Origin: Winogradskyella sp.
Lineage (GTDB): Bacteria; Bacteroidota; Bacteroidia; Flavobacteriales; Flavobacteriaceae
Length of the DNA stretch: 55,633 nucleotides
Assembly: GCA_013002225.1 (NCBI GenBank)
Contig: JABDKL010000148.1
Location: forward strand, 1-55,633
Reading direction: 5' to 3'
Part shown: piece after piece, positions 35,090 through 52,112 of the stretch
How positions within the stretch are numbered: the stretch's first letter is position 1
How the letters are laid out: each line of letters starts with the position of its first letter
Notes under the pieces: generated by a model
What the model was told of the DNA's origin: nothing
The model's input: the letters and a program-made list of their open reading frames with translations, nothing else
Database searches by the model: none
Translations under genes and position numbers: made by a program

Positions 35090-35110
35090 GATTTTAAAAA
35101 CCGATTAGCT

Positions 35111-36071: not shown

Positions 36072-36407
36072 ATGTCAAAAAACTATTACGACGCTGCAGA
36101 CCTAAGAAAGTTTGGAAAAATAACGGAATGGAACGAAGAATTAGGAACTAAATTTTTTGATTATTACGGTAAGGTGTTTGAAGAAGGTGCCCTAACTGCT
36201 AGAGAAAAATCACTGATAGCTTTAGCAGTTGCCCATACCGAGCAATGTCCCTATTGTATAGATGCATACACCAAAGACGGTTTACAGCGCGGTGTTACAA
36301 AAGAAGAAATGATGGAAGCCATACACGTAGGTGCTGCTATTAAAAGTGGTGCTACTTTGGTGCATGGCGTACAAATGATGAATAAAGTAAATAAATTAGA
36401 CGGTTAA
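36072..36407 (+). CDS. Arsenosugar-associated AhpD/CMD-like peroxidase-fold protein
   Basis: 111-residue carboxymuconolactone decarboxylase/AhpD-fold protein with the redox pair CPYC in AHTEQCPYCIDAYTKDGLQRG and a nearby His, the AhpD-type proton relay. This subfamily is known chiefly from its position next to arsS in arsenosugar gene sets, as here: arsS starts 54 bp downstream. The actual reaction is unknown; a thiol-peroxidase or arsenic-redox role would fit. First gene of the arsenosugar group; TATCTTCG (36037-36044), one mismatch from the -7 consensus, lies 27 bp before the start. Confidence 0.88.
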   Translation: MSKNYYDAADLRKFGKITEWNEELGTKFFDYYGKVFEEGALTAREKSLIALAVAHTEQCPYCIDAYTKDGLQRGVTKEEMMEAIHVGAAIKSGATLVHGVQMMNKVNKLDG

Positions 36408-36461
36408 CCTTAAAACCTATCTCTATTTTTTTACGTAAGCATAGATAATACAACCTAATTA

Positions 36462-37517
36462 ATGGCTACAAAATCCCTTAAAAAGCTTGGTAGCGACTTA
36501 GCTAAAAGCAATAAACAACTCGAGATTCTTTCGAATGGAATATTTCAAAATGGTGAGTTGCCAACCTTTAAGACTAAAATTTCTGAAACAAGTCAATTCC
36601 CACTTCAGGCAAGAAAACTAGAAATTCTGCAAATCAATGTGGGTTATATGTGCAATCAGGTTTGTGATCATTGCCATGTAGATGCCGGACCAGACCGTAA
36701 AGAAATAATGACACGAGACACGATGCGTCAATGTCTTGAGGTAATTAAAAATTCTGGAGCGCATACCTTAGATTTAACTGGTGGCGCACCAGAGATGAAT
36801 CCGGATTTTAGATGGTTTGTAGAAGAAGCAGCAAAGGTTGGAATTAAAGATTTTATTGTACGATCTAATCTAACCATTATCCGTGCCAACAAAAAATATT
36901 ACGATTTACCTGATTTCTTTAAAAAACACAATGTACATGTGGTGAGCTCAATGCCGCATTGGACGCGTGGAAAAACCGACAAACAAAGAGGAGATGGTGT
37001 TTTTGATAAATCTATAAAGGCATTACAAGAATTAAATGATCGCGGTTACGGTATGCCAGACAGTGATTTAAGATTGGATTTGGTTTACAACCCTTCTGGT
37101 GCATTTTTACCTGGTGATCAGGCAGCTATGGAGAAAGATTTCAAAAAAGCACTGATGGAAGATTTTGGGATTCAGTTTCACAATCTTTTTGCAATCACCA
37201 ATTTGCCAATTGCACGATTTCTGGATTTCTTAATTGCATCCGAGAACTATGAAGATTACATGTACCAACTTGTGGAAGCCTATAACCCTGCTGCCGTAGA
37301 AAATGTAATGTGTACCAATACACTTTCGGTGAGTTGGGATGGTTATTTATACGATTGTGATTTTAACCAAATGCTAGAATTACCTGTAAATAGTAAAGCC
37401 AAACATATTTCAGAATTTAATGAAGAATTATTAGAAGGCAGAAACATAGTAATTTCCCAACACTGCTATGGCTGTACCGCTGGAGCAGGTAGCAGTTGCC
37501 AAGGAAGTGTAGCATAA
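36462..37517 (+). CDS. arsS: Arsenosugar biosynthesis radical SAM protein ArsS
   Basis: Radical SAM enzyme thought to add the 5'-deoxyadenosyl group to dimethylated arsenic, forming the carbon-arsenic bond of arsenosugars. The [4Fe-4S] motif is CNQVCDHC (Cys64, Cys68, Cys71; CX3CX2C), followed by the GG-type motif LTGGAPEMNP and HVVSSMPHWTRG. The C-terminal domain carries NVMCTNTLSVSWDGYLYDCDFNQML and a terminal cluster CYGCTAGAGSSCQG that could hold a second cluster or arsenic. Some family members are selenoproteins; all these positions are ordinary Cys here. 351 aa is normal. ArsM follows 56 bp downstream. Confidence 0.93.
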   Translation: MATKSLKKLGSDLAKSNKQLEILSNGIFQNGELPTFKTKISETSQFPLQARKLEILQINVGYMCNQVCDHCHVDAGPDRKEIMTRDTMRQCLEVIKNSGAHTLDLTGGAPEMNPDFRWFVEEAAKVGIKDFIVRSNLTIIRANKKYYDLPDFFKKHNVHVVSSMPHWTRGKTDKQRGDGVFDKSIKALQELNDRGYGMPDSDLRLDLVYNPSGAFLPGDQAAMEKDFKKALMEDFGIQFHNLFAITNLPIARFLDFLIASENYEDYMYQLVEAYNPAAVENVMCTNTLSVSWDGYLYDCDFNQMLELPVNSKAKHISEFNEELLEGRNIVISQHCYGCTAGAGSSCQGSVA

Positions 37518-37573
37518 AACCAGAAACGACAAAATATAGGATTTAAAATTTTTACAAAAGAAACAAAAAACGA

Positions 37574-38542
37574 ATGAGTTATTTAGAAACCACACACGAT
37601 GTATATAAAGAAGCAGCATTAACCCCAGACGTAGGATTATGTTGCACTACGAATCCTATTTGGGAATTGCCTGGTCTTAAAATTCCTAAAATTATGCAAG
37701 AAATGAATTACGGTTGTGGCTCTACAGTGCATGCCCGTGATTTAACTAATAACCCAAAAATGTTATACGTTGGTGTTGGTGGAGGCATGGAATTATTACA
37801 GTTCTCCTATTTTAACCGTCAAAAAGGTGGTGTAATTGGTGTTGACGTAGTCGATGAAATGTTAGAAGCCTCTCGCAAAAATTTTAAAATTGCAGAAGAG
37901 CAAAATGAATGGTTTAAGTCTGATTTCGTTGAGCTTAAAAAAGGAGATGCCTTACACCTTCCTGTTGAAGACAATAGCATTGATGTAGCAGCGCAAAATT
38001 GCCTGTTCAACATTTTTAAAGCAGATGATCTAAAAAAGGCCATAAAAGAAATGCATCGTGTACTTAAACCACATGGCCGATTGGTGATGAGCGATCCTAC
38101 CTGCGAGCAACCTATGAATGATGAGCTTCGCAACGACGAACGCTTAAGAGCACTTTGCTTAAGTGGGAGTTTACCGATTGTCGAATATGTAAAAGCGTTA
38201 ACTGATGCTGGTTTCGGAACTATTGAAATCAGAGCACGTAAACCTTACAGAATCTTAGACCCAAAACACTATAATACCGACGAATTAATTTATATAGAGT
38301 CAATTGAAGTCGCTGCCATAAAAGACCCGATGCCAGAAGATGGGCCTTGCATTTTTACTGGTAAAGCTGCAATTTATTTTGGAGATGACGATTATGTAGA
38401 TGACAAAAATGGTCACATTTTATTAAAAAATCAACCTTTAGCTATTTGCGACAAAACTGCTGGAGCATTGGCGAGTTTAAATCGAGATGATATTTTTATC
38501 AGTGAATCTACCTACCATTACGATGGTGGTGGTTGCTGTTAA
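37574..38542 (+). CDS. arsM: Arsenosugar-type arsenite methyltransferase ArsM
   Basis: SAM-dependent methyltransferase that methylates As(III), giving dimethylarsenic for ArsS. The SAM motif is LYVGVGGGMELL (about residues 64-75). Arsenic-binding cysteine candidates are Cys23-Cys24 (GLCCTTNP), Cys48 (YGCGS) and a Cys in AAQNCLFNIF; MSDPTCEQP carries another. The protein ends in GGGCC, a double cysteine typical of this cluster's ArsM. 322 aa, longer than minimal ArsM because of the C-terminal domain. A terminator-like hairpin 28 bp after the stop separates it from the rhodanese gene. Confidence 0.93.
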   Translation: MSYLETTHDVYKEAALTPDVGLCCTTNPIWELPGLKIPKIMQEMNYGCGSTVHARDLTNNPKMLYVGVGGGMELLQFSYFNRQKGGVIGVDVVDEMLEASRKNFKIAEEQNEWFKSDFVELKKGDALHLPVEDNSIDVAAQNCLFNIFKADDLKKAIKEMHRVLKPHGRLVMSDPTCEQPMNDELRNDERLRALCLSGSLPIVEYVKALTDAGFGTIEIRARKPYRILDPKHYNTDELIYIESIEVAAIKDPMPEDGPCIFTGKAAIYFGDDDYVDDKNGHILLKNQPLAICDKTAGALASLNRDDIFISESTYHYDGGGCC

Positions 38543-38569
38543 TATATTTAGATATTGCACTACATTAAG

Positions 38570-38595
38570 AGGCATCTAGATGTCAGGTGCCTTTT
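38570..38595 (+). terminator. Terminator between arsM and the rhodanese gene
   Basis: Eight-bp stem AGGCATCT (38570-38577) with AGGTGCCT (38585-38592), one G-T pair, seven-base loop, then TTTT. It would end or weaken the first arsenosugar transcript; a -7 box starts two bases later. Confidence 0.65.
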
Positions 38596-38596
38596 A

Positions 38597-38604
38597 TAAA
38601 TTTG
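38597..38604 (+). promoter_or_regulatory. Candidate -7 box for the rhodanese-glycosyltransferase-PNP unit
   Basis: TAAATTTG (TAnnTTTG) sits directly after the arsM terminator and 4 bp before the ATG at 38609, so the transcript could be leaderless. No -33 match; the region upstream is the hairpin itself. Confidence 0.45.
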
Positions 38605-38608
38605 TAAC

Positions 38609-39124
38609 ATGAGGCAATTCTTATTTTTTATAATTCCATTACTTTCTATCACGGTAGAAGCGCAAAATTCGCTTCATGATTTGCTTAAAACCTTCAATGC
38701 CGAAACTGTACCTTATATGTCGGTACAAGAACTAGCAATGCCAAAAACAGATGCTGTTATTTTGGATGCACGAGAGTTAGATGAATTTGAAGTAAGCAGA
38801 ATACCAAATGCCATTCATGTAGGATATGACCAGTTTGATATAAAAACTGTGCAATCTAAGGTTCGTGAGTTCTCTAAACCCATAGTCGTTTATTGCTCCA
38901 TAGGCATTCGTTCAGAAGATATTGGTGAAAAACTAAAGAAGGCAGGTTATACCAATGTGTTTAATCTTTATGGTGGCATTTTTGAATGGAAAAATAAAGG
39001 CTTACCTGTATTTGATTCTGCCGATAAAGAAACCGACAAAGTACATGCATTCTCAAAGTCGTGGAGCAAATGGCTGAAAACGGGAGAAAAAGTATATGGC
39101 AAAGACAAAAAAAAGAATGAGTAA
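38609..39124 (+). CDS. Exported rhodanese-like protein
   Basis: Sulfurtransferase-fold protein with a signal peptide (MRQFLFFIIPLLSITVEAQ), so periplasmic or outside. The catalytic cysteine is Cys96 in IVVYCSIGIRSE, and the fold markers DAVILDARELDEFEVSRIPNAIHV and FNLYGGIFEWKNKG are intact. 171 aa. It overlaps the next glycosyltransferase gene by 8 bp and lies within the arsenosugar set, so it may handle thiolated arsenic (thio-arsenosugars occur in nature); that is inference from position only. Rhodanese activity itself is not certain. Confidence 0.87.
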   Translation: MRQFLFFIIPLLSITVEAQNSLHDLLKTFNAETVPYMSVQELAMPKTDAVILDARELDEFEVSRIPNAIHVGYDQFDIKTVQSKVREFSKPIVVYCSIGIRSEDIGEKLKKAGYTNVFNLYGGIFEWKNKGLPVFDSADKETDKVHAFSKSWSKWLKTGEKVYGKDKKKNE

Positions 39125-39725
39125 AAGAGCATTAATTGTCTTTACAAGAAATCCAGAATTGGGTAAATGTAAAACCCGATTAGCTAAAACACTTGGAGAC
39201 GAATCTGCCTTAAAAATTTACAACTATTTACTTAAGCACACCGCATCAGTTTCGGCAAACGTCAGTGCCGATCGCTTTGTGTTTTATTCAGAAGCCATAA
39301 ATCACGATGATATTTGGGAAACAGATACATTTTACAAAAAGCTTCAGCAAGGTGATGATTTAGGAGAACGCATGTATAATGCTTTTTCAGAATTGTTTCA
39401 ATCAGGCTATAAAAAAGTAATTATTATAGGCAGCGACTTGTTAGATCTAAATGAGCATATAATCGATGACGCCTACGATCAATTAGACAAAAACGAGGTT
39501 GTTATTGGACCTGCAAAAGATGGCGGCTATTATCTTCTGGGCTTAAATACCCTACACGACTCGATATTTAAAAACAAGCAATGGGGAACTGATACGGTTA
39601 GAGAAGAAACGCTTAAAGATTTAGAAAACAGCAGCGTTCATTTGCTAAAAATTTTAAATGATATCGATACCTTTGAAGATATGAACCATTACCAGGAACT
39701 GAAACCATTTTACAATTTATCATGA
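39117..39725 (+). CDS. TIGR04282 family arsenosugar glycosyltransferase (DUF2064)
   Basis: Nucleotide-sugar transferase-like protein of the GT-A fold. It begins MSKRALIVFTRNPELGKCKTRLA, with the family's FTRxPxxGxxKTRLA block, then KVIIIGSDLLDLNEHIIDDAY (acidic metal site) and VIGPAKDGGYYLLGLN, DUF2064's defining GPxxDGGYxLxGL. The ATG at 39117 overlaps the rhodanese stop and fits the family start; a longer frame from 39096 adds seven Lys-rich residues. The family is named for its place in arsenosugar clusters and may supply or attach the sugar-side group. PNP starts in its stop (ATGA). Confidence 0.9.
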   Translation: MSKRALIVFTRNPELGKCKTRLAKTLGDESALKIYNYLLKHTASVSANVSADRFVFYSEAINHDDIWETDTFYKKLQQGDDLGERMYNAFSELFQSGYKKVIIIGSDLLDLNEHIIDDAYDQLDKNEVVIGPAKDGGYYLLGLNTLHDSIFKNKQWGTDTVREETLKDLENSSVHLLKILNDIDTFEDMNHYQELKPFYNLS

Positions 39726-40534
39726 TTAAATTTATCACAGAAAGTACAGAATATTTACAAAGTAAAGGTTTTGACAAGCCAGAAGTTGGCATTATTCTGG
39801 GCACAGGATTAGGTAAGCTTATAGGCCATATAGACATCATAGCAGAAGCGAGCTATAATCATATACCAAATTTCCCTACAGCAACTGTAGAATTTCATAA
39901 AGGCAAACTAATCTATGGAAATTTAGGCGGAAAAAAAGTAGTTGTAATGCAGGGCCGTTTTCATGTGTATGAAGGCTATACTTTGCAAGACGTGACATTT
40001 CCTGTTCGCATCATGGAAAAACTAGGTATTAAAACCCTTTTAGTATCTAATGCGTCTGGTGCCATTAATCTCAATTTTAAAAAGGGCGAATTGATGCTTA
40101 TCGACGACCATATCAATTTGCAAGGTGGTTCACCCTTAGCATTCAAAGGCGTATCGGATTTGGGAGAACGGTTTACTGATATGAGCGAACCTTATAGTGC
40201 TGAAATTAATGCGAAAATAGAATCGATTGCTAATTCCGAAAATATAAAATTACATAAAGGCGTTTATGCCAGCGTGGTTGGACCTCAGTTAGAAACACGC
40301 GCAGAGTATAGAATGCTAAAAATAATTGGAGCTGATGCCGTTGGCATGAGTACTGTACCAGAAATTATTGTCGCCAATCATTTAGGATTAAAAGCTGCAG
40401 CAGTGTCAGTTTTAACCGATGAATGCGACCCAGATAATCTGAAACCAGTTGATATTGCAGAAATTATCGCTATGGCTGGGAAAGCGGAACCTGAAATGAT
40501 CAAGTTGTTTACGGGATTGATTGAACAACTTTAA
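39722..40534 (+). CDS. Purine-nucleoside phosphorylase, trimeric type
   Basis: Phosphorolysis of purine nucleosides to free base and ribose-1-phosphate. Trimeric (low-molecular-mass) PNP motifs: GIILGTGLGKLIGHI phosphate loop, QGRFHVYEGY, SNASGAINLNFKKGELMLIDDHINLQG and VVGPQLETRAEYRML with Glu191 (human Glu201). The position of human Asn243, which favours 6-oxopurines, is Asp233 here (SVLTDECDP); Asp at this site is linked to acceptance of 6-aminopurines. That suits removal of adenine from an adenosyl-arsenic intermediate. The start overlaps the glycosyltransferase stop (ATGA), so it belongs to the arsenosugar unit. 270 aa, normal. Confidence 0.92.
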   Translation: MIKFITESTEYLQSKGFDKPEVGIILGTGLGKLIGHIDIIAEASYNHIPNFPTATVEFHKGKLIYGNLGGKKVVVMQGRFHVYEGYTLQDVTFPVRIMEKLGIKTLLVSNASGAINLNFKKGELMLIDDHINLQGGSPLAFKGVSDLGERFTDMSEPYSAEINAKIESIANSENIKLHKGVYASVVGPQLETRAEYRMLKIIGADAVGMSTVPEIIVANHLGLKAAAVSVLTDECDPDNLKPVDIAEIIAMAGKAEPEMIKLFTGLIEQL

Positions 40535-40542
40535 ATATAATT

Positions 40543-40652
40543 ATCCTATCTGGTCGAGCGCAATAGAGACCTCATATAACCGACTAGACTTTGCTCGATG
40601 TTATAGAATGTAAATATACTAAAAGAGACTCCCGTTATCACGGGAACTAGAG
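40543..40652. repeat. Intergenic palindromic element
   Basis: Between PNP and the sterol-desaturase-like gene there are two nested inverted repeats: TCGAGCGCAA (about 40553-40562) with TTGCTCGA (about 40592-40599), and TCCCGT (40630-40635) with ACGGGA (40640-40645), loop TATC. The second ends 7 bp before an ATG. From memory, short elements with TCGAGCGCA-like and CCCG...CGGG palindromes recur between genes in flavobacterial genomes; only this one copy is seen in the window. Confidence 0.45.
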
Positions 40653-41555
40653 ATGGAGAAGTACTTAGAAATTATAAAAAATTCATATTCCGGATACTGG
40701 AATTATCTTAAATATGAACTCATAGACCTCAATCACTGGGACAATTACTTCTATGGCTTAATTGCGATTTCTCTATTGGTCTGGGCACTAGAAATACTAT
40801 TTCCTTGGCGAAAACACCAATCTGTATTCAGGAAGGATTTTTGGTTAGATACGTTCTATATGTTCTTTAATTTTTTCATACTAAATCTTATCATATTAAT
40901 TGCTTTGTCTAATACAGCCTCAGCGTTTTTTAACGATATTCTTGGCGTTATTGGCTTGTCGCTCCATCAATTACAATTGTTCGATGTCGATGATTTACCG
41001 AGATGGTTAGGTTTGTTTATTTTTTTCCTGATTTCCGATTTTGTTCAGTGGAACACGCATCGACTTTTACATCGTGTGCCCTGGTTATGGAATTTTCATA
41101 AAGTGCACCACTCAGTAAAGGAAATGGGTTTTGCTGCCCACTTACGATACCACTGGATGGAACCTGTAGTTTATAAGTCCTTATTATATATTCCTATTGC
41201 CATAATAGGTGGTTTTGATGCGCAAGATGTCGCTATTGTTTACTTCTTCGCCATTGCTATTGGGCATTTAAATCATGCAAATTTAGGCTGGGATTACGGC
41301 ATCTTTAAATACGTTTTTAACAATCCGAAAATGCACATTTGGCATCATGCCAAAAAAATGCCCCAAGGTGTTAGGTATGGCGTTAACTACGGGCTTACGT
41401 TAAGTCTTTGGGATTATATTTTCGGTACCAGTCACGTGCCACATGACGGCAGAGATATCGAGTTAGGATTTCACGGTGATGAAACTTTTCCAAAGGATTT
41501 TGTAAGGCAGGAAATGTATCCTGCATTTTCAAAACGGAAAGCCCCAAAGCACTAA
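40653..41555 (+). CDS. Sterol desaturase/fatty acid hydroxylase superfamily membrane protein
   Basis: Integral membrane di-iron oxygenase of the fatty acid hydroxylase superfamily. The histidine boxes are HRLLHR, HKVHHS and HIWHH, with a further His in HLNHAN, together enough for the di-iron site. About five membrane helices (for example 30-50, 70-95, 130-148, 185-215). 300 aa. It follows PNP on the same strand and precedes DUF547 by 11 bp within the arsenosugar region; hydroxylation of a lipid that carries an arsenosugar (arsenolipid) is a possible role but untested. Confidence 0.88.
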   Translation: MEKYLEIIKNSYSGYWNYLKYELIDLNHWDNYFYGLIAISLLVWALEILFPWRKHQSVFRKDFWLDTFYMFFNFFILNLIILIALSNTASAFFNDILGVIGLSLHQLQLFDVDDLPRWLGLFIFFLISDFVQWNTHRLLHRVPWLWNFHKVHHSVKEMGFAAHLRYHWMEPVVYKSLLYIPIAIIGGFDAQDVAIVYFFAIAIGHLNHANLGWDYGIFKYVFNNPKMHIWHHAKKMPQGVRYGVNYGLTLSLWDYIFGTSHVPHDGRDIELGFHGDETFPKDFVRQEMYPAFSKRKAPKH

Positions 41556-41566
41556 ATTAGATAACC

Positions 41567-42448
41567 ATGAAATACATTATAGTTCTAGTATCAGCAGTTT
41601 TGTTTTGTTCATGTTATGGTGCTCAGAACGCAGCAGAAAGTCCTGTGAATGCATATAATCTGCCGAATGTTGCACCTAACGATTCTGATACTGTCGCAAC
41701 CCCAAATACAGCAGAACCTATTGACCCAATCGACTTGACAATACCAGAACCACCAAAACCGCCGGAATTCGAATCAGTCGAAAAAGTCAGTGAGCACAAA
41801 CCCGAAGTATTTGATCACAGCAAATGGAATACTTTATTAAAAAGACATGTTTCGGAAAATGGCAATGTTAATTACAAGGGCTTTAAAACTGATCGTTCTG
41901 AATTGGCTACTTATATTAATGCTTTAGCTCAGAATACGCCAAATGAGGACTGGCGTAGGGACGATATACTTGCCTACTGGATAAATGCGTATAATGCACT
42001 TACCATAGATTTAATTATCAAGAATTTTCCAATAAAAAGCATCAAAGCTATTAAAGACCTATGGCATCAAAGACTTTGGCAATTTGGTGATAAATGGATA
42101 AACCTTAATGGGATTGAACACGACATTTTACGTGTAATGGATGAGCCTCGTATTCACTTTGCTATTGTTTGTGCTTCTGTTTCTTGTCCCAAACTTCAGA
42201 ATGAGGCCTTTACAGCCACAGATCTTGAAGTGCAATTATCTAAAGCTACAGCAACATTTTTAAATGATCGTTCGAGAAATGAAATTTCGAAAGACCTGAT
42301 TATATTGTCAAAAATCTTTAAATGGTTTAGCAAAGACTTTGAACGAAATGGAACTGTCATTGATTTTCTAAATACTTATTCTGATATTGCTATTTCTCAA
42401 TCTGCTAAAATTGAGTACAAGGATTATAATTGGGAACTAAACAACTAA
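41567..42448 (+). CDS. DUF547 domain lipoprotein
   Basis: Exported lipoprotein (MKYIIVLVSAVLFCSCYG; lipid Cys14 or Cys16). A Pro- and Glu-rich linker (about residues 25-80) leads to a DUF547 domain: WNTLLKRHVSENGNVNYKGF, DDILAYWINAYNALTIDLII, WINLNGIEHDILR and PRIHFAIVCASVSCPKL with a Cys/His set resembling a thiol-peptidase-like active site. 293 aa. Function of DUF547 is unknown. It lies 11 bp after the hydroxylase and 34 bp before the TIGR04283 glycosyltransferase, thus inside the arsenosugar block. Confidence 0.88.
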   Translation: MKYIIVLVSAVLFCSCYGAQNAAESPVNAYNLPNVAPNDSDTVATPNTAEPIDPIDLTIPEPPKPPEFESVEKVSEHKPEVFDHSKWNTLLKRHVSENGNVNYKGFKTDRSELATYINALAQNTPNEDWRRDDILAYWINAYNALTIDLIIKNFPIKSIKAIKDLWHQRLWQFGDKWINLNGIEHDILRVMDEPRIHFAIVCASVSCPKLQNEAFTATDLEVQLSKATATFLNDRSRNEISKDLIILSKIFKWFSKDFERNGTVIDFLNTYSDIAISQSAKIEYKDYNWELNN

Positions 42449-42482
42449 AACTATTACTTTAGATCTTCCGTAAGTATCATAT

Positions 42483-43172
42483 ATGATTAGTATCATTATA
42501 CCTGTTTTAAACGAAGCTAAAACTATAAAAGCACTACTTTTTCATTTGATAGACCATGCAGCGTTAAGTTCAATTTCAGAAATTATAGTTGTTGATGGTG
42601 GCAGTACTGATGAAACGAAAGAAATTATCCAGTCATTAGATTTAGGAATAGTTCTGTTAGACTCTGAAAAAGGTAGAGCTAAGCAAATGAATACTGGTGC
42701 AAAAATTGCCAAAGGCAATATTCTTTACTTTCTTCATGCCGATTCTTTTCCTCCTAACCGATATGATAAATTAATACTAAACGAAGTCGAGAAAGGAAAC
42801 AAAGCAGGTTGTTTTAGAATGCAATTTGACAATAATCATTGGTGGTTGCGCATCGTTAGCTGGTTAACTCAATTTTCATGGCGTGCTTGCCGTGGCGGTG
42901 ATCAAAGCCAGTTTATAACACGAGAATTGTTTGATGAAATTGGTGGTTACGATGAAAATTACATCATATACGAAGACAATATTTTAATCAATGAACTTTA
43001 TGCGAGAAATGAGTTTGTAGTGATCAATAGAAAGCTAAAAACCTCTGCACGTATGTACAAAAAGCATGGTGTCTGGAAGGTTCAGTATCACTTTTGCATC
43101 ATCTATATAAAAAAATGGTGTGGCGCTTCAGCCGATGAAATGCTGGCGTATTACAAAAAGCACCTTTGCTAA
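42483..43172 (+). CDS. TIGR04283 family arsenosugar glycosyltransferase (GT2)
   Basis: GT2-type glycosyltransferase. MISIIIPVLNEAKTIKALL opens the GT-A fold; EIIVVDGGSTDET is the nucleotide-sugar site, LLDSEKGRAKQMNTGAKIAKGNILYFLHADSFP the family block (GRAxQMNxGA and HADS in place of DXD). GGDQSQFITRELFDEIGGYDENYIIYEDN follows. 229 aa is normal. Its family is tied to arsenosugar clusters together with TIGR04282, which is also here 2.8 kb upstream. It may attach the glycosyl or glycerol-type aglycone; the exact donor is not known. Stops 3 bp before a convergent minus-strand gene. Confidence 0.92.
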   Translation: MISIIIPVLNEAKTIKALLFHLIDHAALSSISEIIVVDGGSTDETKEIIQSLDLGIVLLDSEKGRAKQMNTGAKIAKGNILYFLHADSFPPNRYDKLILNEVEKGNKAGCFRMQFDNNHWWLRIVSWLTQFSWRACRGGDQSQFITRELFDEIGGYDENYIIYEDNILINELYARNEFVVINRKLKTSARMYKKHGVWKVQYHFCIIYIKKWCGASADEMLAYYKKHLC

Positions 43173-43175
43173 TTT

Positions 43176-43907
43176 TTATTTATTTCTACCCTTTTCATTG
43201 GGATATAATTTAGGCAGCGCATCGCTCTGAAATATGTCTTTAGACTCGATATCAATTGCAGATAGTTTGCCAGTAAAGGCAGCACCTGTATCTATATTCC
43301 ATACATTTACAGCATGCATCGGCTCGCGCTTATGAAAATTAATAGTTGGTGTATGGCCTATGTAAATTTCAGAATAATGCTTTAAACGGTTCGGAAATAT
43401 ATCGGAGTCTTTTTTTATACGCTTATCCATAGTTAATGCCATTTCCCAAAGGGTACGATCAAAATAAAAGCTTCTAAAATTATATTCGCGCTCCACGCCA
43501 TGCATTGAGGTAAAACCAGCATGAACAAATAATCTATTTTTGTCATCTAAATGGTATAAAGGCATATTTTCAAAAAACCGAAGGTGCGCTTTCTTTTGAT
43601 CATCATCAAAATTAACATAACTCTCAACCGTCCCTTCTCCGCCATGCATTAACCAGGTTGGGTCACCATCGTTGGTGCGCAACCAATCTTCACACCATAC
43701 ATCATGATTGCCTTTTATAAAAATACATTCATTTGTTTGTGAGAGTTCAATTAAAAATTGGATCACTTGCGCCGATTCGCTCCAACCATCCACATAGTCT
43801 CCAACAAAAATTATCCTATCTTCTGGAGTTACTTCAGCGCTTTCCAAAAGCTGAACAAGCGCTCTTAATCCGCCGTGGATATCGCCAATTGCAAGTGTTC
43901 TACTCAT
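43176..43907 (-). CDS. Metallophosphoesterase, PPP-like
   Basis: Calcineurin-type phosphoesterase. The metal motifs are GDIHGG (residues 7-12), FVGDYVDGWSESAQVI (GDxxDxG equivalent), KGNHDVW (GNHD), VHAGF and GHTP. 243 aa, no signal peptide, so cytoplasmic. Resembles small bacterial Ser/Thr protein phosphatase or ApaH-like enzymes; the target cannot be assigned. It follows the GH113-like gene by 8 bp on the same strand and the two interrupt the plus-strand arsenosugar block. Confidence 0.87.
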   Translation of the reverse strand: MSRTLAIGDIHGGLRALVQLLESAEVTPEDRIIFVGDYVDGWSESAQVIQFLIELSQTNECIFIKGNHDVWCEDWLRTNDGDPTWLMHGGEGTVESYVNFDDDQKKAHLRFFENMPLYHLDDKNRLFVHAGFTSMHGVEREYNFRSFYFDRTLWEMALTMDKRIKKDSDIFPNRLKHYSEIYIGHTPTINFHKREPMHAVNVWNIDTGAAFTGKLSAIDIESKDIFQSDALPKLYPNEKGRNK

Positions 43908-43915
43908 TTAATGCT

Positions 43916-45042: not shown

Positions 45043-46347
45043 ATGGAGCACGTTGTTATTATTGGTAATGGCATTTCTGGAGTTACGCTTGCCAGGCATA
45101 TTCGCAAACTTTCTAATAAAAAAATAACCATTATTTCTGCCGAAACTGAATATTTCTTTTCACGGACGGCTTTAATGTATGTCTACATGGGACATATGAC
45201 TTTTGAACATACCAAACCTTACGAAGACTGGTTTTGGAAAAAAAACCGAATTGAACTGAAACAAGCTTATGTAACGTCAGTTAATACAGCTTCTAAAACC
45301 TTACATTTTTCCGAGGGAAATACCATCACTTACGATAAATTGGTAATTGCGACAGGAAGTAAACCCAACAAATTTGGCTGGCCTGGACAAGATTTAGATG
45401 GCGTACAAGGCTTATATAGTAAGCAAGATCTTGATAGGCTTGAACAAAACGCACCAAATAACGAGGTGTGCAAACGTGCTGTTGTTGTAGGCGGCGGATT
45501 AATTGGTATTGAATTAGTAGAAATGTTAAATTCAAGAAATATCCCGGTGACCTTTTTGGTTCGCGAATCTAGTTTCTGGAATAGTGTTTTACCTGAAGGT
45601 GAGAGTGAAATGATCAATAGACACATTAAAAGCCACGGCATTGATTTACGACTGTCTTCTAATTTGAAAGAAATAAAATCGGATACCAACGGTCATGTCA
45701 GCGCTGTTATTATTGAAGAAACAGGCGAAGAATTAGCATGTGATCTCGTCGGACTTACAGCAGGTGTAACACCGAATATTGATTTCTTAAAAGATTCCGA
45801 AATCGAAACTGGCAAGGGCGTAAAAGTGAATCGCTTTTTAGAAACCAATATTAAGGATGTCTATGCTATTGGTGATTGTGCAGAACAGCAAGAAACGGTT
45901 GGCAATCGCAGACCTATTGAAGCTGTATGGTACACGGGTCGTATGATGGGAGAAACATTAGCTCAGACACTTTGTGGTAATAAAATGCCGTACAATCCTG
46001 GGCACTGGTTTAATTCTGCAAAATTTATGGATATTGAATACCAGACCTATGGTTGGGTATTTAACGAAAAAGGGCAACCCGATTATGAACAGCATTTTCA
46101 TTGGAAACACAAAGACGATGATAAATGCATAACCATTGCTTACAGAAAGGACAACAATGCATTTTTAGGCATAAATACATTTGGTATACGCATGAAACAT
46201 GACGTATTTGATAAATGGCTCACAGAGCATCGCACATTAGATTATGTGATTTCCCACCTTAAAAATGCCAATTTTGATCCTGAATTTTACAGCCAATACG
46301 ACGACCAAATTAAAGCTGCTTATTCTAACACCTTGCAAACCGCCTAG
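45043..46347 (+). CDS. NAD(P)/FAD-dependent oxidoreductase
   Basis: Flavoprotein of the pyridine-nucleotide disulfide oxidoreductase superfamily, of the rubredoxin/ferredoxin reductase kind. FAD loop VVIIGNGISGVTLARHI (Gly7-Gly12), NAD(P) loop AVVVGGGLIGIELVEML (about 147-163), ATG motif LVIATGSKP and FAD motif VYAIGDCAE (about 277-285). The C-terminal ~110 residues form a non-standard domain (HWKHKDDDKCITIAYRKDNNAF). No redox-active CxxC. It precedes a membrane polyferredoxin by 2 bp, so the two probably pass electrons from NAD(P)H to the membrane protein. It follows the arsenosugar block but that link is by position only. Confidence 0.88.
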   Translation: MEHVVIIGNGISGVTLARHIRKLSNKKITIISAETEYFFSRTALMYVYMGHMTFEHTKPYEDWFWKKNRIELKQAYVTSVNTASKTLHFSEGNTITYDKLVIATGSKPNKFGWPGQDLDGVQGLYSKQDLDRLEQNAPNNEVCKRAVVVGGGLIGIELVEMLNSRNIPVTFLVRESSFWNSVLPEGESEMINRHIKSHGIDLRLSSNLKEIKSDTNGHVSAVIIEETGEELACDLVGLTAGVTPNIDFLKDSEIETGKGVKVNRFLETNIKDVYAIGDCAEQQETVGNRRPIEAVWYTGRMMGETLAQTLCGNKMPYNPGHWFNSAKFMDIEYQTYGWVFNEKGQPDYEQHFHWKHKDDDKCITIAYRKDNNAFLGINTFGIRMKHDVFDKWLTEHRTLDYVISHLKNANFDPEFYSQYDDQIKAAYSNTLQTA

Positions 46348-46349
46348 AG

Positions 46350-47942
46350 ATGAATACACCAAAACCAAGCATGTCCCTCACTAAACCAGAAGCGTTTGAT
46401 CTGTCTATAAAACAGAAAATCTCTACTGCTATTGGTCTACTAGGTCTAATCATCTTAATCCTGGCAGCCTTTAATGTTCATTTTCCTTATAAACCTGTAG
46501 TTTTAACCTTGTCTTTAGTGATGATTAGTGCTGGTGTTATACTTTTTGCTAACGACCTGTATCTGGGCAAACATGCTGGTATAAAAAATGATGGTGTCAT
46601 GTTTAAGTCTGTTTCTTCGCGTGGCATATGGGCGTGGCTCACCGGAATTGCCTTAACGGCCTTTTACATTATCCTTTATTTTAAAGCAACCTGGTTAGGC
46701 CTAGGTCAAAATGGAGCAGAAAACACAGGACTTGTGGCACTCTTCGATCCTTTAAGCAACATTATAAGTGGCTCTAAAGCAAGCCAGTGGTTTGTCTATG
46801 GCGTATTGTATACGATTGCCATTTTAGCATTTGGGTACAAGTTTTTATTAAAATACAGACATAATCGCTATGAACGCTTAAGAACCTATTCTGTTATGTT
46901 TTTTCAACTGGCCTTTGCGTTTTTAATACCTGAATTTATGGCACGATTAAATTCAGATTCGTTTAGTCTCCCGTATTATGATCTTAAGAATATCTGGCCA
47001 CTTAATTATTATAATTTTGAACAGTACAGAGTTAATTCGTTCATCGACGCCGGAGATATAGGATTGGCATTATTAATTTTTGGAATTGTATCCATCTTCG
47101 TCATTACGCCAATTCTTACCTATAAATATGGAAAACGCTGGTATTGCTCCTGGGTTTGTGGATGTGGCGGATTGGCAGAAACCTCTGGTGATCCATTTAG
47201 ACACCTTAGTGATAAGCGTCAGTTTGCCTGGAAGATCGAGCGTTGGGTAGTCCATAGTGTTGTGGTCTTTGTTGTATTAATGACCACTGCAGTTGTACAT
47301 TCTTATTTAGGTGATGACCAAACTAAATATTGGTTAACCAAACAAACCTTCTTGATAAGTGTTGCAGCTATATTAACCCTTGTATTTGTGCTCGTCATGG
47401 TGTTTAAAAGGGCGCAATTAGCGAAGGATGCCAAGTATGGTGCCATCGGCTACTTCGTTATTATCATGGTATTATTTGCTATGCACTATTTTAACGGCAC
47501 ACAATTATTTTTATTTAAAACTGAAACGCTGAGACAATCTTATGGATTTCTAATTGGATCTATTTTTTCTGGAGTTATTGGCACAGGCTTCTACCCTATT
47601 TTTGGAAATAGAGTTTGGTGTCGTTTTGGTTGCCCAATGGCAGCAATTCTAGGGTTTCAGCAACGATTATTTTCAAGATTTAGAATAACAACTAATGGTG
47701 GCCAATGTATTTCATGTGGTAATTGTTCTACCTATTGTGAAATGGGTATTGATGTTAGAGCTTACGCACAGAAAGGTGAAAACATTGTGCGTTCTAGTTG
47801 TGTAGGTTGTGGCATCTGCTCTGCCGTCTGTCCGAGAGGAGTACTCAAACTAGAAAACGACTCATTAAAGGGTCGTATCGACTCTAACGAGATCCTTCTT
47901 GGTAATGATGTAGATCTAATGGATTTAGTAAATCAGAAATAA
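46350..47942 (+). CDS. Membrane 4Fe-4S polyferredoxin, NapH/CcoG-like
   Basis: About eight membrane helices followed by a C-terminal ferredoxin domain with two [4Fe-4S] sites: Cys453, 456, 459, 463 (CISCGNCSTYC) and Cys484, 487, 490, 494 (CVGCGICSAVC). In the membrane part there are additional cysteine motifs, YCSWVCGCGGLAETSGDP (about residue 266) and WCRFGCPMAA (about 423), in positions where NapH and NosR-type proteins have CxxxCP. 530 aa. It would carry electrons across or within the membrane from the FAD protein upstream (2 bp apart). The acceptor is not in sight. Confidence 0.88.
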   Translation: MNTPKPSMSLTKPEAFDLSIKQKISTAIGLLGLIILILAAFNVHFPYKPVVLTLSLVMISAGVILFANDLYLGKHAGIKNDGVMFKSVSSRGIWAWLTGIALTAFYIILYFKATWLGLGQNGAENTGLVALFDPLSNIISGSKASQWFVYGVLYTIAILAFGYKFLLKYRHNRYERLRTYSVMFFQLAFAFLIPEFMARLNSDSFSLPYYDLKNIWPLNYYNFEQYRVNSFIDAGDIGLALLIFGIVSIFVITPILTYKYGKRWYCSWVCGCGGLAETSGDPFRHLSDKRQFAWKIERWVVHSVVVFVVLMTTAVVHSYLGDDQTKYWLTKQTFLISVAAILTLVFVLVMVFKRAQLAKDAKYGAIGYFVIIMVLFAMHYFNGTQLFLFKTETLRQSYGFLIGSIFSGVIGTGFYPIFGNRVWCRFGCPMAAILGFQQRLFSRFRITTNGGQCISCGNCSTYCEMGIDVRAYAQKGENIVRSSCVGCGICSAVCPRGVLKLENDSLKGRIDSNEILLGNDVDLMDLVNQK

Positions 47943-47973: not shown

Positions 47974-48678
47974 ATGCCAATTATTAAAGTTATTATTCCT
48001 GCCTATAATGAAGCAGAATCAATTGCTCACGTTATAAGGGACATTCCTGCTATTGTAGATGAAGTTATTGTAGTAAGTAATACGTCTACAGACAACACAG
48101 AACATAACGCTAAAAAGGCAGGAGCTACTGTTTTAGTAGAAGCACAAAAAGGTTATGGTTACGCCTGTCTAAAAGGCATGGCCTATATTGCTTCGACAGC
48201 GAATAATAACCCAAGCCAAAAACCAGATATCATTGTGTTTTTAGATGGCGACTATAGTGATTATCCGGAAGACTTGACAAAACTCATACAACCCATTGTC
48301 GAAAATAATATTGACCTGGTCATTGGTGCGAGGGTTAAAGATTTAAGAGAAAAAGGATCTATGACCAGCCCTCAAATTTTTGGCAACTGGCTTGCTACCA
48401 GACTTATGTGGCTGTTTTTCAATTCAAAATTCACGGATCTAGGGCCGTTTAGAGCCATAAAATACGACAAGTTGCTTGCCTTAAATATGGTAGACAAGAC
48501 CTATGGCTGGACGGTAGAAATGCAACTTAAAGCATTAAAGAAAAAGTATAGTTATACAGAAATACCTGTTAATTATAGAAATAGAATAGGTGTCTCAAAA
48601 GTTTCCGGTACGATAAAAGGTGCTATCTTTGCAGGCGTAAAAATCCTAGGTTGGATTTTTAAATATAGTTTTAAGTGA
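47974..48678 (+). CDS. GT2 glycosyltransferase, DPM1-like
   Basis: Soluble or peripheral GT2 enzyme: IKVIIPAYNEAESIAHVIRDIP, VDEVIVVSNTSTDNT, QKGYGYACLKGMAYIA and the DXD-type VFLDGDYSDYPED, then FTDLGPFRAIKYDKLLALNMVDKTYGWTVEMQLKALK and NYRNRIGVSKVSGT, which match the dolichol/polyprenol-phosphate mannosyltransferase or glucosyltransferase group. 234 aa, without the C-terminal helices some of these carry. Its stop overlaps the next GT2 start (GTGA). It likely makes a lipid-linked sugar donor; the polytopic mannosyltransferase-like protein at 50.7-52.1 kb could use it. Confidence 0.88.
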   Translation: MPIIKVIIPAYNEAESIAHVIRDIPAIVDEVIVVSNTSTDNTEHNAKKAGATVLVEAQKGYGYACLKGMAYIASTANNNPSQKPDIIVFLDGDYSDYPEDLTKLIQPIVENNIDLVIGARVKDLREKGSMTSPQIFGNWLATRLMWLFFNSKFTDLGPFRAIKYDKLLALNMVDKTYGWTVEMQLKALKKKYSYTEIPVNYRNRIGVSKVSGTIKGAIFAGVKILGWIFKYSFK

Positions 48679-50168
48679 TTTACCTTCAATACACCATAAT
48701 TGTAATTTATACCATAGCTATAGTGCTCATTTTTTTATACGCACTTGCACAATTAAATTTACTTTACAATTACTTATCGTCTAAAAAGAAACGTGAGGCT
48801 TGTGAGACTTTTGATCTCACAAATGCAGATGAAGTACCGTTTGTTACCATTCAATTGCCTGTATTTAATGAAATGTACGTTATGGAGCGTCTGCTCGATA
48901 ATATTGCATTAATTGAATATCCCAAAGCTAAGCTAGAAATACAAGTTCTTGACGACTCTACCGACGAAACGGTCGCTACCACCAAAGCACATGTCGAGGA
49001 ACTTGCTAAGACTGGTTTAGACATAAAACATATTACCCGAACCGACCGAACCGGTTTTAAGGCTGGTGCGCTAAAAGAAGGGTTAAAAATTGCTAAGGGT
49101 GAATTCATTGCCATTTTTGATGCCGATTTTTTACCCAATCCAAATTGGCTAAAACGAACCATTCCCTATTTTAAAAACGAAAAAATTGGGGTTGTGCAAA
49201 CACGTTGGGGCCATATTAACAGAAACTACTCCTTACTTACTAAAATACAAGCTTTCGCTCTAGATGCTCATTTTACATTAGAGCAGGTTGGAAGAAACAG
49301 TAAAGGCCATTTCATTAATTTTAATGGAACTGCTGGTGTTTGGAGGAAGGAATGCATCATAGATGCAGGCAACTGGGAAGGCGATACGCTTACAGAAGAT
49401 CTGGACCTAAGTTACCGGGCACAATTAAAGAACTGGGAATTTAAATATCTTGAAAATGTTGAAACTCCTGCAGAATTACCAATCGTAATTAGTGCTGCGC
49501 GTTCACAACAATTCCGTTGGAATAAAGGTGGTGCTGAGAACTTTAGAAAAATGTTAAAGCGTGTTATAACATCAGATAATATCAGTACTAAAACAAAAGT
49601 GCATGGTTTATTACACCTTCTAAACAGCACAATGTTTTTAAGCATTTTTATTGTTGCTGTTTTGAGTATCCCTATGTTATACATAAAAAATGAATACGCC
49701 CATTTAAGAGACTACTTTTATATTATGAGTTTCTTTATAATGAGTACCGTTATTTTCTTTGTGTGTTATTGGTTTATGTATCGCAATATCTATGGTAGTG
49801 GCTTTAAAAAATTCTTTAGTTATATTGGGATGTTCTTTACATTTTTCTCTATAGCAATGGGATTTTCGTTACACAATTCTATAGCTGTATTAGAAGGCCA
49901 TGCTGGCAAACGCAGTGAGTTTGTGCGGACGCCAAAATTTAACCTCAGCAAGTATAAAGACAACTGGAAAAATAACAAGTACCTGCGCAAAAACCTATCA
50001 CCTCATGTTATTTTAGAGGGTATACTGATGCTGTATTTTGCCTTTGGTATGTATAGTGCTTTTATTGTTGGTGACCAAGGTGGCGATTTTGGATTATTCC
50101 CTTTTCACCTGATGTTATTTATCGGTTTTGGTTATGTATTCTTTAAATCACTTAGCTCTAAAGTTTAA
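48675..50168 (+). CDS. Cellulose-synthase-like processive GT2
   Basis: Membrane glycosyltransferase with one or two N-terminal helices (about residues 5-30), a catalytic GT2 domain (about 55-290) and four or five C-terminal helices (from about 315). The D,D,D,QxxRW signature is complete: VLDDSTDET, FDADFLPNP, LTEDLDLSYRAQLK and SQQFRWNKG. 497 aa. The start is GTG at 48675, overlapping the previous stop by four bases. Members make beta-linked polysaccharides (mannan, glucan) or glycolipids; the product cannot be told. Its end overlaps a convergent SRPBCC gene by 4 bp. Confidence 0.9.
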   Translation: MIYLQYTIIVIYTIAIVLIFLYALAQLNLLYNYLSSKKKREACETFDLTNADEVPFVTIQLPVFNEMYVMERLLDNIALIEYPKAKLEIQVLDDSTDETVATTKAHVEELAKTGLDIKHITRTDRTGFKAGALKEGLKIAKGEFIAIFDADFLPNPNWLKRTIPYFKNEKIGVVQTRWGHINRNYSLLTKIQAFALDAHFTLEQVGRNSKGHFINFNGTAGVWRKECIIDAGNWEGDTLTEDLDLSYRAQLKNWEFKYLENVETPAELPIVISAARSQQFRWNKGGAENFRKMLKRVITSDNISTKTKVHGLLHLLNSTMFLSIFIVAVLSIPMLYIKNEYAHLRDYFYIMSFFIMSTVIFFVCYWFMYRNIYGSGFKKFFSYIGMFFTFFSIAMGFSLHNSIAVLEGHAGKRSEFVRTPKFNLSKYKDNWKNNKYLRKNLSPHVILEGILMLYFAFGMYSAFIVGDQGGDFGLFPFHLMLFIGFGYVFFKSLSSKV

Positions 50169-50678: not shown

Positions 50679-52112
50679 ATGTTTGCAATTGCTAACTTAA
50701 TTAAGCATCACAAATTCTTTTTAGCGTTACTATTTTTGAGCGTTATATGTTATCTGATTTTTGGTTATGATCTGGTGAGAACAGACACATCAAAATTATT
50801 GGTAGTATATATTGCTCTTTTTAGTTCTACCTTTTTCTTAATACAACATTGTAAATTTTATAATTTACCAAAGGGTCTCGATAGTTTCAAAGTTTTAGCA
50901 GGTGTTGCCATTGGCTTTCGACTACTATTTTTATTTGCAACACCCAATTTATCCCAAGACTTCTACCGTTTTATTTGGGATGGTCGAATGATCTTAGAAG
51001 GCTTTAACCCTTATCTTTTTACACCAGATTCGTTTATACTTAAAGGTAATTTTCCAATTGCACAGGCCCAAGAATTACACAAGGGTATGGGTGCATTGAG
51101 TGCTTCGCATTACACAAATTATCCGCCATTGAATCAACTTTGTTTTGCCATTGCAGCATTATTTTCGGGCAAAAGTGTTTTGGGTTCTGTAGTTATTATG
51201 CGAATTATAATTATTGCCGCAGATATTGGGACACTTTATTTCGGAAAAAAACTTTTGGAACGTTTAAAACTACCTTCAAATAGAATTTTTTGGTTCATTT
51301 TAAATCCATTTATAATTATTGAGCTCACTGGTAACCTTCATTTTGAAGGCGTCATGATCTTCTTTTTGATCTGGTCCTTATATGTACTGCATTCAGGTAG
51401 GTGGAAATGGGCAGCCGTTCTCTTTGCTTGTTCTATCTCAGTGAAGTTAATCCCATTGATGTTCTTACCTTTGTTTTATGGCTGGTTTACTTCGACTTCG
51501 TTCCGCGACCATAACAATACCTCAAGACAAGGGATCTCAGTAGTAGCAGGCATAAAACGACTAATGCAATTTTATGGTATTGTCGGTGTTATAACCCTAC
51601 TGCTTTTTATTCCCTTTTTCTCGATGGCATTTATTGACAACTATGCTAATACAGTAGGTCTATGGTTTGGAAATTTTGAGTTCAATGCCAGTATTTACTA
51701 TCTCGCCAGAGCCATTGGTTATGCGATAACTGGTTTTAATGAAATTGCGATTATCACTAAAATTTTACCCATTATAACGGTACTCATTATTTTATGGTTT
51801 TCATTCTTCAGACCGCACAATACGATGACTAAATTTATAACAGCGCTCCTATTGGTATTTTCATTTTATCTGTTTTTGAGTACTACAGTACATCCCTGGT
51901 ATGTTGCGACCTTAGTGATATTATGCGTGTTTACAGATTACAAATACCCTATCATTTGGTCACTGGCACTTATATTAAGTTATTTAGCGTATAGCAATAC
52001 GGCTAATGCAGAAAATCTCTTAATAATTGGGTTAGAATACGCTATTGTATTTGGTGTGTTTTTATGGGAACTGGTTTTTAAAAATAGGCGTATAAAAAAA
52101 GCCAACACATAG
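50679..52112 (+). CDS. Polytopic mannosyltransferase-like protein (GT-C fold)
   Basis: About 11 transmembrane helices and the extracytoplasmic motif SQDFYRFIWDGRMILEGFNPY (about residues 92-112), typical of GT-C enzymes that use polyprenol-phosphate sugars; the aspartates in it are candidates for catalysis. Further motif ELTGNLHFEGVMIFFLIW matches the GT87/PIG-M-like set. 477 aa. A lipid-linked mannose donor could be made by the DPM1-like GT2 2 kb upstream. Sugar identity is inferred. Its stop codon lies within the loop of a terminator hairpin. Confidence 0.83.
   Translation: MFAIANLIKHHKFFLALLFLSVICYLIFGYDLVRTDTSKLLVVYIALFSSTFFLIQHCKFYNLPKGLDSFKVLAGVAIGFRLLFLFATPNLSQDFYRFIWDGRMILEGFNPYLFTPDSFILKGNFPIAQAQELHKGMGALSASHYTNYPPLNQLCFAIAALFSGKSVLGSVVIMRIIIIAADIGTLYFGKKLLERLKLPSNRIFWFILNPFIIIELTGNLHFEGVMIFFLIWSLYVLHSGRWKWAAVLFACSISVKLIPLMFLPLFYGWFTSTSFRDHNNTSRQGISVVAGIKRLMQFYGIVGVITLLLFIPFFSMAFIDNYANTVGLWFGNFEFNASIYYLARAIGYAITGFNEIAIITKILPIITVLIILWFSFFRPHNTMTKFITALLLVFSFYLFLSTTVHPWYVATLVILCVFTDYKYPIIWSLALILSYLAYSNTANAENLLIIGLEYAIVFGVFLWELVFKNRRIKKANT

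Follow-up and report, generated by a model that had tools for sequence, protein, structure and literature searches.

Cyanobacteria produce oxo-arsenosugars, and the portions of the literature available to us place the methyltransferase ArsM and the radical S-adenosylmethionine (SAM) enzyme ArsS at the first steps, via adenosylation of arsenic (PMC12159101; PMC8552651). In those portions ArsM and ArsS are the steps shown by experiment, while the route from arsenic-adenosine onward is left open (PMC12159101; PMC8552651), and the accessible part of a review of microalgal compounds relates a proposal that one arsenolipid later loses its adenine through the action of a nucleosidase (PMC10456119). 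Phosphorolysis and nucleotide activation are not described in the available parts of these three sources (PMC12159101; PMC8552651; PMC10456119), and a role of purine nucleoside phosphorylase (PNP) in arsenosugar synthesis was not met in a partial search of the literature, from which absence from print is not claimed. Here we analyze a 55,633-nucleotide contig of Winogradskyella sp. (JABDKL010000148.1, assembly GCA_013002225.1; hereafter the window, meaning this whole stretch), in which genes for ArsM, ArsS, a PNP and six other proteins form a conserved arsenosugar-type cluster that may encode a route from arsenic-adenosine to an arsenic-containing riboside.

The arsM and arsS genes of Synechocystis sp. 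PCC 6803, for which the accessible part of the source shows the initial steps, encode the same ArsM and ArsS families (PMC8552651). Unlike the cyanobacterial genes, the window arsS is linked to genes for PNP, a TIGR04282 protein, a TIGR04283 glycosyltransferase, a DUF547 protein, an FA_hydroxylase family protein and a putative redox pair comprising an FAD oxidoreductase and a NapH-like membrane protein. On a plasmid of Pseudanabaena, the neighbors of arsM and arsS encode TVP38 proteins and an annotated mercuric reductase. In the arsinothricin cluster arsQML of Burkholderia gladioli, as described in the available part of its source, a radical SAM enzyme and ArsM likewise form C-As bonds from SAM, but the predicted transfer is of an aminocarboxypropyl rather than an adenosyl group and sugar steps are absent (PMC8552651). 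The NCBIfam arsenosugar families TIGR04167, TIGR04169, TIGR04282, TIGR04283 and NF038099 are annotation names, and five window proteins exceed their cut-offs, one for each family; the window PNP, FA_hydroxylase, DUF547, FAD oxidoreductase and NapH-like proteins carry no arsenosugar annotation name.

A conserved arsenosugar-type cluster

The families of the window proteins were named from scores of curated NCBIfam models against their curated cut-offs and from Pfam scores. Together with the positions of the open reading frames (ORFs), these scores agree with a sequence-only reading of this DNA, which had named nine consecutive plus-strand genes (36072-43172) as a nearly complete arsenosugar gene set:

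36072..36407, plus strand, peroxidase-like protein of the CMD/AhpD family, TIGR04169 (193.7 bits, cut-off 120)
36462..37517, plus strand, ArsS, radical SAM enzyme, TIGR04167 (443.8 bits, cut-off 300)
37574..38542, plus strand, ArsM, arsenite methyltransferase of the arsenosugar type, NF038099 (580.5 bits, cut-off 400)
38609..39124, plus strand, rhodanese domain protein, NF045521 (211.6 bits, cut-off 145)
39096..39725, plus strand, TIGR04282 / DUF2064 protein, proposed nucleotidyltransferase (214.3 bits, cut-off 134)
39722..40534, plus strand, PNP, NF006054 (336 bits, cut-off 218)
40653..41555, plus strand, membrane di-iron protein of the FA_hydroxylase / sterol desaturase family, PF04116 (98.5 bits, cut-off 31)
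41567..42448, plus strand, DUF547 protein, PF04784 (87.8 bits, cut-off 27)
42483..43172, plus strand, glycosyltransferase family 2 (GT2) protein of the TIGR04283 family (236.3 bits, cut-off 182)

The spacing of the nine genes is operon-like, as in one operon, with intergenic gaps of 54, 56, 66, -29, -4, 118, 11 and 34 bases in order, the TIGR04282 and PNP genes overlapping by 4 bases. The radical SAM motif CX3CX2C of ArsS lies at C64, C68 and C71 and is invariant in five sequences. Assignment of an arsenosugar-type cluster to a relative of Winogradskyella is borne out by the curated models and by the closest ArsS sequences, which are up to 95% identical and come from Winogradskyella (among the best 80 of 587 candidates).

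In 121 of the 296 sampled genomes of the phylum, ArsS exceeds the TIGR04167 cut-off. Gene neighborhoods were compared in a near-kin set, the best 80 of 587 candidate loci encoding an ArsS relative and thus biased to close kin, and in a phylum set of 60 loci hand-picked from the 121 ArsS-positive genomes, 58 of which were counted. Four plasmid ArsS loci were added to these sets, and 143 of the 145 labelled ArsS loci were counted, two having been dropped at ORF selection. ORFs in relatives were labelled with profiles made from the window proteins, and counts of neighbors around ArsS are lower bounds, many loci ending at contig ends or flank limits.

Conservation of gene order in relatives had been set as a test on which the proposal could fail, and the order recurs in Flavobacteriaceae, where it commonly runs peroxidase-like, ArsS, rhodanese, TIGR04282, PNP, ArsM, FA_hydroxylase, DUF547, TIGR04283; the window departs from it in having ArsM directly after ArsS. 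The peroxidase-like gene lies within 8 kb of ArsS on the same strand in 133 of 143 ArsS loci, with 130 adjacent pairs in which it is immediately 5′ of ArsS, and all nine families are found on one strand within 9 kb in at least 10 of the 143, the window among them. Within 8 kb of ArsS on its strand, the near-kin set (n = 80) contains the peroxidase-like gene in 78 loci, TIGR04282-like genes in 66 (a count that takes in short paralogues), PNP in 46, ArsM in 40, rhodanese in 35, DUF547 in 32, TIGR04283 in 20 and FA_hydroxylase in 16. The corresponding counts within 8 kb in the phylum set (n = 58) are 54, 33, 7, 12, 7, 13, 24 and 2, so the set is thinner beyond near kin. Because relatives have these families next to ArsS too, the cluster is more than a chance assembly, and, as far as sequence can tell, it is a real, conserved arsenosugar-type cluster, one of many. 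The nine-gene set as first described is thus present in full in the window, but several of its members, such as the FA_hydroxylase gene, are optional in relatives.

Variants of the cluster differ in what they retain. Three loci from another family of the phylum (L141, L142, L145) have ArsS, the peroxidase-like gene, TIGR04282 and TIGR04283, the rest of the nine families being absent, and two genomes (G130, G134) have rhodanese-TIGR04282-PNP-ArsM blocks separate from ArsS. A plasmid of Acinetobacter portensis (NZ_CP096121.1, 7977-16930; locus L034) carries an arsenosugar-type cluster with a TVP38/FAD oxidoreductase, in which ArsS is followed, within 5.2 kb and on the same strand, by genes annotated as DUF547, TIGR04283 and TIGR04282; a few kb further, the opposite strand carries genes annotated as methylthioadenosine (MTA) phosphorylase (mtnP) and sterol desaturase; the name of this plasmid includes NDM-1. 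On a Thiodictyon plasmid a sterol desaturase gene precedes ArsS. A family found near ArsS in some distant loci (F35) was guessed to be an MTA phosphorylase and proved to be a mechanosensitive channel (L143).

In one relative (L036, 11135-18747) a 7-kb stretch separates ArsS from the rhodanese gene or the full-type TIGR04282 gene and encodes, besides a short paralogue of TIGR04282, a TonB receptor of the SusC/RagA type, a SusD-like lipoprotein and a protein of 446 residues with no Pfam match at E 1e-5. Similar stretches occur in L037-L039, L043, L047, L049, L060, L084 and L119, the Pfam families having been tested in L036 alone; this Sus-type stretch could be an uptake system placed within the arsenosugar cluster.

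A proposed route to an arsenic-containing riboside

These observations led to the proposal, which we hold tentatively and at a little less than an even chance, that the cluster makes an arsenic-containing riboside via ArsM, ArsS, PNP, TIGR04282 and TIGR04283, with the redox pair supplying or removing electrons. In this scheme, ArsM would convert arsenite to dimethylarsenite, and ArsS would combine dimethylarsenite with the 5′-deoxyadenosyl group of SAM to give arsenic-adenosine, a reaction known for homologues, with the peroxidase-like protein probably an accessory to ArsS. PNP would then take adenine off by phosphorolysis, leaving 5-deoxy-5-dimethylarsinoyl-ribose 1-phosphate, TIGR04282 would join this sugar phosphate to a nucleoside triphosphate (NTP) to form a nucleoside diphosphate (NDP)-arsenoribose, and TIGR04283 would transfer arsenoribose onto an acceptor (glycerol, lipid or glycan). 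The order PNP, TIGR04282, TIGR04283 would thereby yield a sugar-1-phosphate, an NDP-sugar and a glycoside in turn. The FAD oxidoreductase and NapH-like protein may pass electrons to or from the pathway, and the FA_hydroxylase-like, DUF547 and rhodanese proteins may act on the acceptor or on the exported product. Gene content, gene order, co-occurrence and sequence signatures are observed; from them we infer the substrates after ArsS and the roles of the redox pair.

TIGR04282 as a candidate nucleotidyltransferase

The sequence-only reading had listed TIGR04282 and TIGR04283 as two arsenosugar glycosyltransferase families. Both proteins score above their cut-offs, but TIGR04282, for which glycosyltransferase is the NCBI annotation name, looks from its relatives and motifs more like a nucleotidyltransferase. 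The window protein matches Pfam CofC (30.6, cut-off 22) and shares motifs with CofC, the 2-phospho-lactate guanylyltransferase, but does not reach the F420 CofC equivalog TIGR03552 (37.2 bits, cut-off 105). It is also related to 3cgx, a solved putative nucleotide-diphospho-sugar transferase, the remaining Protein Data Bank (PDB) matches of the TIGR04282 profile being weak (E 0.04 or worse). The CofC-type signature KxRL, GxD (GSD), DGG and DxDxxxD, which we take to have a catalytic meaning in CofC, is kept: K26, R28, L29, G112, D114, P139, D142-G144, D189 and D191 are invariant in 90 of 90 full-type copies, and D195 is found in 88 of the 90. Many relatives have, beside ArsS, a shorter TIGR04282 paralogue (35 copies, 80-170 bits) in which the later motifs are kept and KxRL is mostly lost (K26 in 4 of 35, R28 in 5 of 35). 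This split in motifs between full and short copies fits an enzyme that needs KxRL in the PNP-linked copy.

Purine nucleoside phosphorylase

The product of ArsS is an adenosine with arsenic at C5′, and a phosphorylase acting on it would need to take adenine as the base and tolerate a bulky substituent at 5′. In an alignment numbered by human PNP (sequence checked), the window PNP carries Asp where the human enzyme has N243, and Ile in place of H257; in 65 of 65 cluster copies N243 is replaced by Asp, and H257 by Ile (62), Val (2) or Leu (1). A human PNP mutant with the N243D change is in the PDB (3gb9, aligned); this change presumably favors adenosine in human PNP, and we take human His257 to bind the 5′-OH, so its replacement by Ile, Val or Leu could leave room for a 5′ substituent. 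MTAP, which has a hydrophobic 5′ pocket, belongs to the same superfamily and has an Asp in a VTD motif, as the window protein has in LTD; the window protein falls in the PNP branch according to its NF006054 score, reaching 89.9 bits against the MTA phosphorylase equivalog TIGR01694 (cut-off 274.85). PNP chemistry on the ArsS product is plausible.

Asp at N243 was considered as a marker of cluster PNPs and rejected, since 82 of 90 PNP rows from other loci, which include repeat fetches of some cluster copies, also have it, a finding unfavorable to the proposed route; His257 is present in 26 of these rows. Two PNP types can be separated only by loss of His257 together with Leu200, and some genomes that have no ArsS above its cut-off share the Leu200 type. 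Because Asp is common elsewhere and the Leu200 type is found without ArsS, the notion of a dedicated cluster PNP was dropped in favor of a shared, housekeeping one. A contrast is seen within a genus of the window's family represented by 17 genomes (g2): each of the three ArsS-positive genomes (G084, G218, G289) has both a non-His257 and a His257 copy, six ArsS-negative genomes have the His257 type only, and in eight no match reaches E 1e-20. A non-His257 PNP is nevertheless found despite the absence of ArsS in G182, and also in ArsS-negative genomes of other families (for example G045, G146, G261). The inclusion of PNP in the gene set thus stands on its NF006054 score but is tempered by the presence of the family in 280 of 296 phylum genomes, which marks it as a housekeeping family too; normal purine metabolism probably uses this same enzyme.

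This housekeeping distribution is what would be expected if arsenic were detoxified with no defined sugar product, ArsM and ArsS forming arsenic-adenosine and PNP merely salvaging adenine, with the ribose part degraded or excreted. In a single-contig genome of the same genus (G226), moreover, only the cluster copy matches the window PNP when E is set at 1e-20, and it is among three PNP-superfamily matches, the number also found in the window genome. Such a scheme leaves TIGR04282, TIGR04283 and the tight linkage of PNP (see below) with no role, and we regard it as improbable.

Upstream of the nine genes, positions 34610-35911 contain an XdhC gene and a gene of the cytidine/guanine-deaminase type (PF00383), by eye a guanine deaminase. 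These are possible purine genes near a purine phosphorylase.

Co-occurrence with ArsS across genera

The distribution of these genes was analyzed in 80 Flavobacteriaceae genomes, one per genus, with kinship ignored in the counts. ArsS is present in 56 of the 80 genera, and TIGR04282 exceeds its cut-off in all 56 of these versus 4 of the 24 ArsS-negative genera (Fisher p 3e-15, uncorrected for kinship); TIGR04283 is found in 46 of 56 versus 3 of 24, and PNP (E <= 1e-40) in 56 of 56 and 15 of 24. TIGR04282 and PNP are on the same contig and strand, at most 2.5 kb apart, in all 59 genera with the two genes, and no more than 200 bases apart in 51 of them, whereas ArsS is within 12 kb on the TIGR04282 strand in just 46 of the 56 ArsS-positive genera and farther away, on the opposite strand or on another contig in the other 10. 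TIGR04282 and PNP therefore constitute the tightest unit, one that stays intact when ArsS is elsewhere.

Several features of this data set weigh against the proposed route. Completeness is no more than 80-93% for some of the genomes, 10 of the 56 ArsS-positive genera have no TIGR04283 at the threshold used, and PNP occurs without TIGR04282 in 12 of the 24 ArsS-negative ones. Three ArsS-negative genera (G182, G312, G330) retain TIGR04282, PNP, TIGR04283 and NapH-like genes, and a fourth retains TIGR04282 alone of these. The main counter-evidence lies in the three genera that have the block but no ArsS, and in how widely PNP occurs as a housekeeping enzyme.

That block, together with the 10 genera in which ArsS is distant, on the opposite strand or on another contig, could mean that the arsenic pathway comprises ArsM, ArsS and the peroxidase-like protein only, and that a separate pathway, made up of TIGR04282, PNP, TIGR04283, DUF547 and the redox pair, shares the locus by descent and makes a glycoside from another 5′-modified nucleoside, such as methylthioadenosine or 5′-deoxyadenosine. 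A genome of another family (G045) fits this pattern, as it keeps DUF547-rhodanese-TIGR04282-PNP with no ArsS match over cut-off. However, TIGR04282 is present in every ArsS-positive genus and in just 4 of 24 ArsS-negative ones, and the three loci noted above (L141, L142, L145) pair ArsS and the peroxidase-like gene with TIGR04282 and TIGR04283 only, so two separate pathways seem to us unlikely, though a serious alternative.

A redox pair and glycosyltransferase-like genes downstream

The arsenosugar set had been taken to end at 43172, but it is probably longer and extends past this position, since linkage ties it to the redox pair and to three genes further downstream that resemble glycosyltransferases:

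45043..46347, plus strand, FAD-dependent NAD(P)H oxidoreductase, ferredoxin-reductase-like (domain match)
46350..47942, plus strand, NapH-like membrane protein, labelled by resemblance (hydrophobic segments and a 4Fe-4S dicluster domain with its Cys pattern)
47974..48678, plus strand, DPM1-like GT2, polyprenyl-phosphate glycosyltransferase-like (AglJ 112.2 bits, below cut-off 325)
48675..50168, plus strand, CESA/PgaC-like membrane glycosyltransferase (21 pairs right after the DPM1-like gene)
50679..52112, plus strand, multi-pass membrane protein with 10 hydrophobic segments, presumably GT-C-like (no Pfam match; after the CESA-like gene in 10 pairs)

Over 169 loci, the FAD oxidoreductase gene immediately precedes the NapH-like one in 31 pairs. 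In six loci it lies within 30 bases after a cassette gene, making the redox pair contiguous with the cluster: after TIGR04283 in L326, after PNP in L315, L097 and L100, and after ArsM in L316 and L320. The DPM1-like gene directly follows ArsS in three loci (L151, L168, L169). Across genera, the NapH-like gene (E 1e-60) is found in 55 of 80, including 52 of 56 ArsS-positive and 3 of 24 ArsS-negative ones, the latter being exactly the three that keep TIGR04282, PNP and TIGR04283. It accompanies TIGR04282 even more closely, in 55 of 60 TIGR04282-positive and 0 of 20 TIGR04282-negative genera (10 of these 20 genomes are listed as 99-100% complete), and it is downstream of TIGR04282 on the same strand within 20 kb in 46 of the 55. 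On the other side of the balance, four of the 56 ArsS-positive genera have no NapH-like gene, it lies farther than 20 kb away in three and on another contig in six of the 55, and three NapH-like matches contain an internal stop.

The redox pair also lies near ArsS in L151, L161, L162 and L163, which come from other families of the phylum. In two further loci (L168, 4028-6505; L169, 3988-6465), one 826-residue ORF near DUF547, the peroxidase-like gene and ArsS combines a pyridine-nucleotide oxidoreductase domain with a NapH-like 4Fe-4S ferredoxin part; because at the threshold applied its oxidoreductase half gave no match to the window FAD oxidoreductase, it represents a similar arrangement and not a proven fusion of the same two proteins. 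Counting only loci with both redox genes within the available flanks, the pair is found in 11 of 80 near-kin, 2 of 20 nearer phylum and 4 of 40 distant phylum ArsS loci.

The low frequency beyond the family, the lack of correction for kinship, the two minus-strand genes that separate the parts in the window and the polymer-type glycosyltransferases of the downstream part would all fit a reading in which the FAD oxidoreductase, NapH-like and glycosyltransferase genes are an unrelated conserved flavobacterial locus, co-occurrence reflecting clades that lost both. It is countered by contiguity with cassette genes in the six loci named, by the pair near ArsS in L151 and L161-L163 and by the related fusion in L168 and L169; we think an unrelated locus somewhat unlikely. 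There is good evidence that the redox pair is part of the flavobacterial system, in which its role in electron transfer is putative.

The minus-strand genes between the two parts (43176-44926) encode a calcineurin-like phosphoesterase and a GH113-like protein, and a GH113-like gene is present in 10 of 12 stretches inspected around the NapH-like gene. Two loci from small genomes with no NapH-like match (L319, 4281-4703, minus strand; L312, 4637-5038, minus strand) encode a 134-141-residue membrane-type protein, mercury-transport-like by eye, that sits between PNP or DUF547 and the DPM1-like gene; the L319 copy has no Pfam match.

FA_hydroxylase, DUF547 and rhodanese proteins

Ten His residues of the FA_hydroxylase protein (136, 140, 149, 152, 153, 167, 208, 228, 231, 232) are invariant in 18 sequences, and the histidine boxes HxxxH, HxxHH and HxxHH that define the membrane di-iron fatty acid hydroxylase superfamily are all kept; against the ornithine lipid hydroxylase OlsE (NF052566) it scores 86.3 bits, under the cut-off of 475. 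The DUF547 protein has a hydrophobic segment at residues 1-19 and an N-terminal stretch ending in Cys, lipoprotein-like by eye, and fold comparison of its model (predicted local distance difference test, pLDDT, 86.5) gave no clear match or credible relative. The rhodanese has a hydrophobic N-terminus that resembles a signal peptide by eye, with no segment over the hydrophobicity threshold, and a single Cys, Cys96; an exported sulfur-transfer step to a thio-arsenosugar is our guess at its function.

Implications

A broader reading treats the arsenic genes as a detachable front end attached to a larger, conserved locus of flavobacteria (window positions ~36-52 kb), in which a 5′-modified adenosine would pass via PNP and TIGR04282 into a lipid- or polymer-linked glycoside, built by TIGR04283 and the DPM1-, CESA- and GT-C-like glycosyltransferases and served by the membrane FAD/iron-sulfur redox pair. 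The product would be an arsenosugar lipid or glycan in ArsS-positive species, and the three ArsS-negative genera would use another 5′-modified nucleoside. We offer this broader reading as speculative and rather unlikely.

Under the route proposed here, the linkage and motifs point to enzymes for the open middle steps of arsenosugar synthesis, plus a redox pair, and the locus supplies candidates for each later step, in an order the chemistry would lead one to expect, in a widespread bacterial group whose members often live with algae. If the proposal is true, some seaweed-type organoarsenicals could be bacterial.

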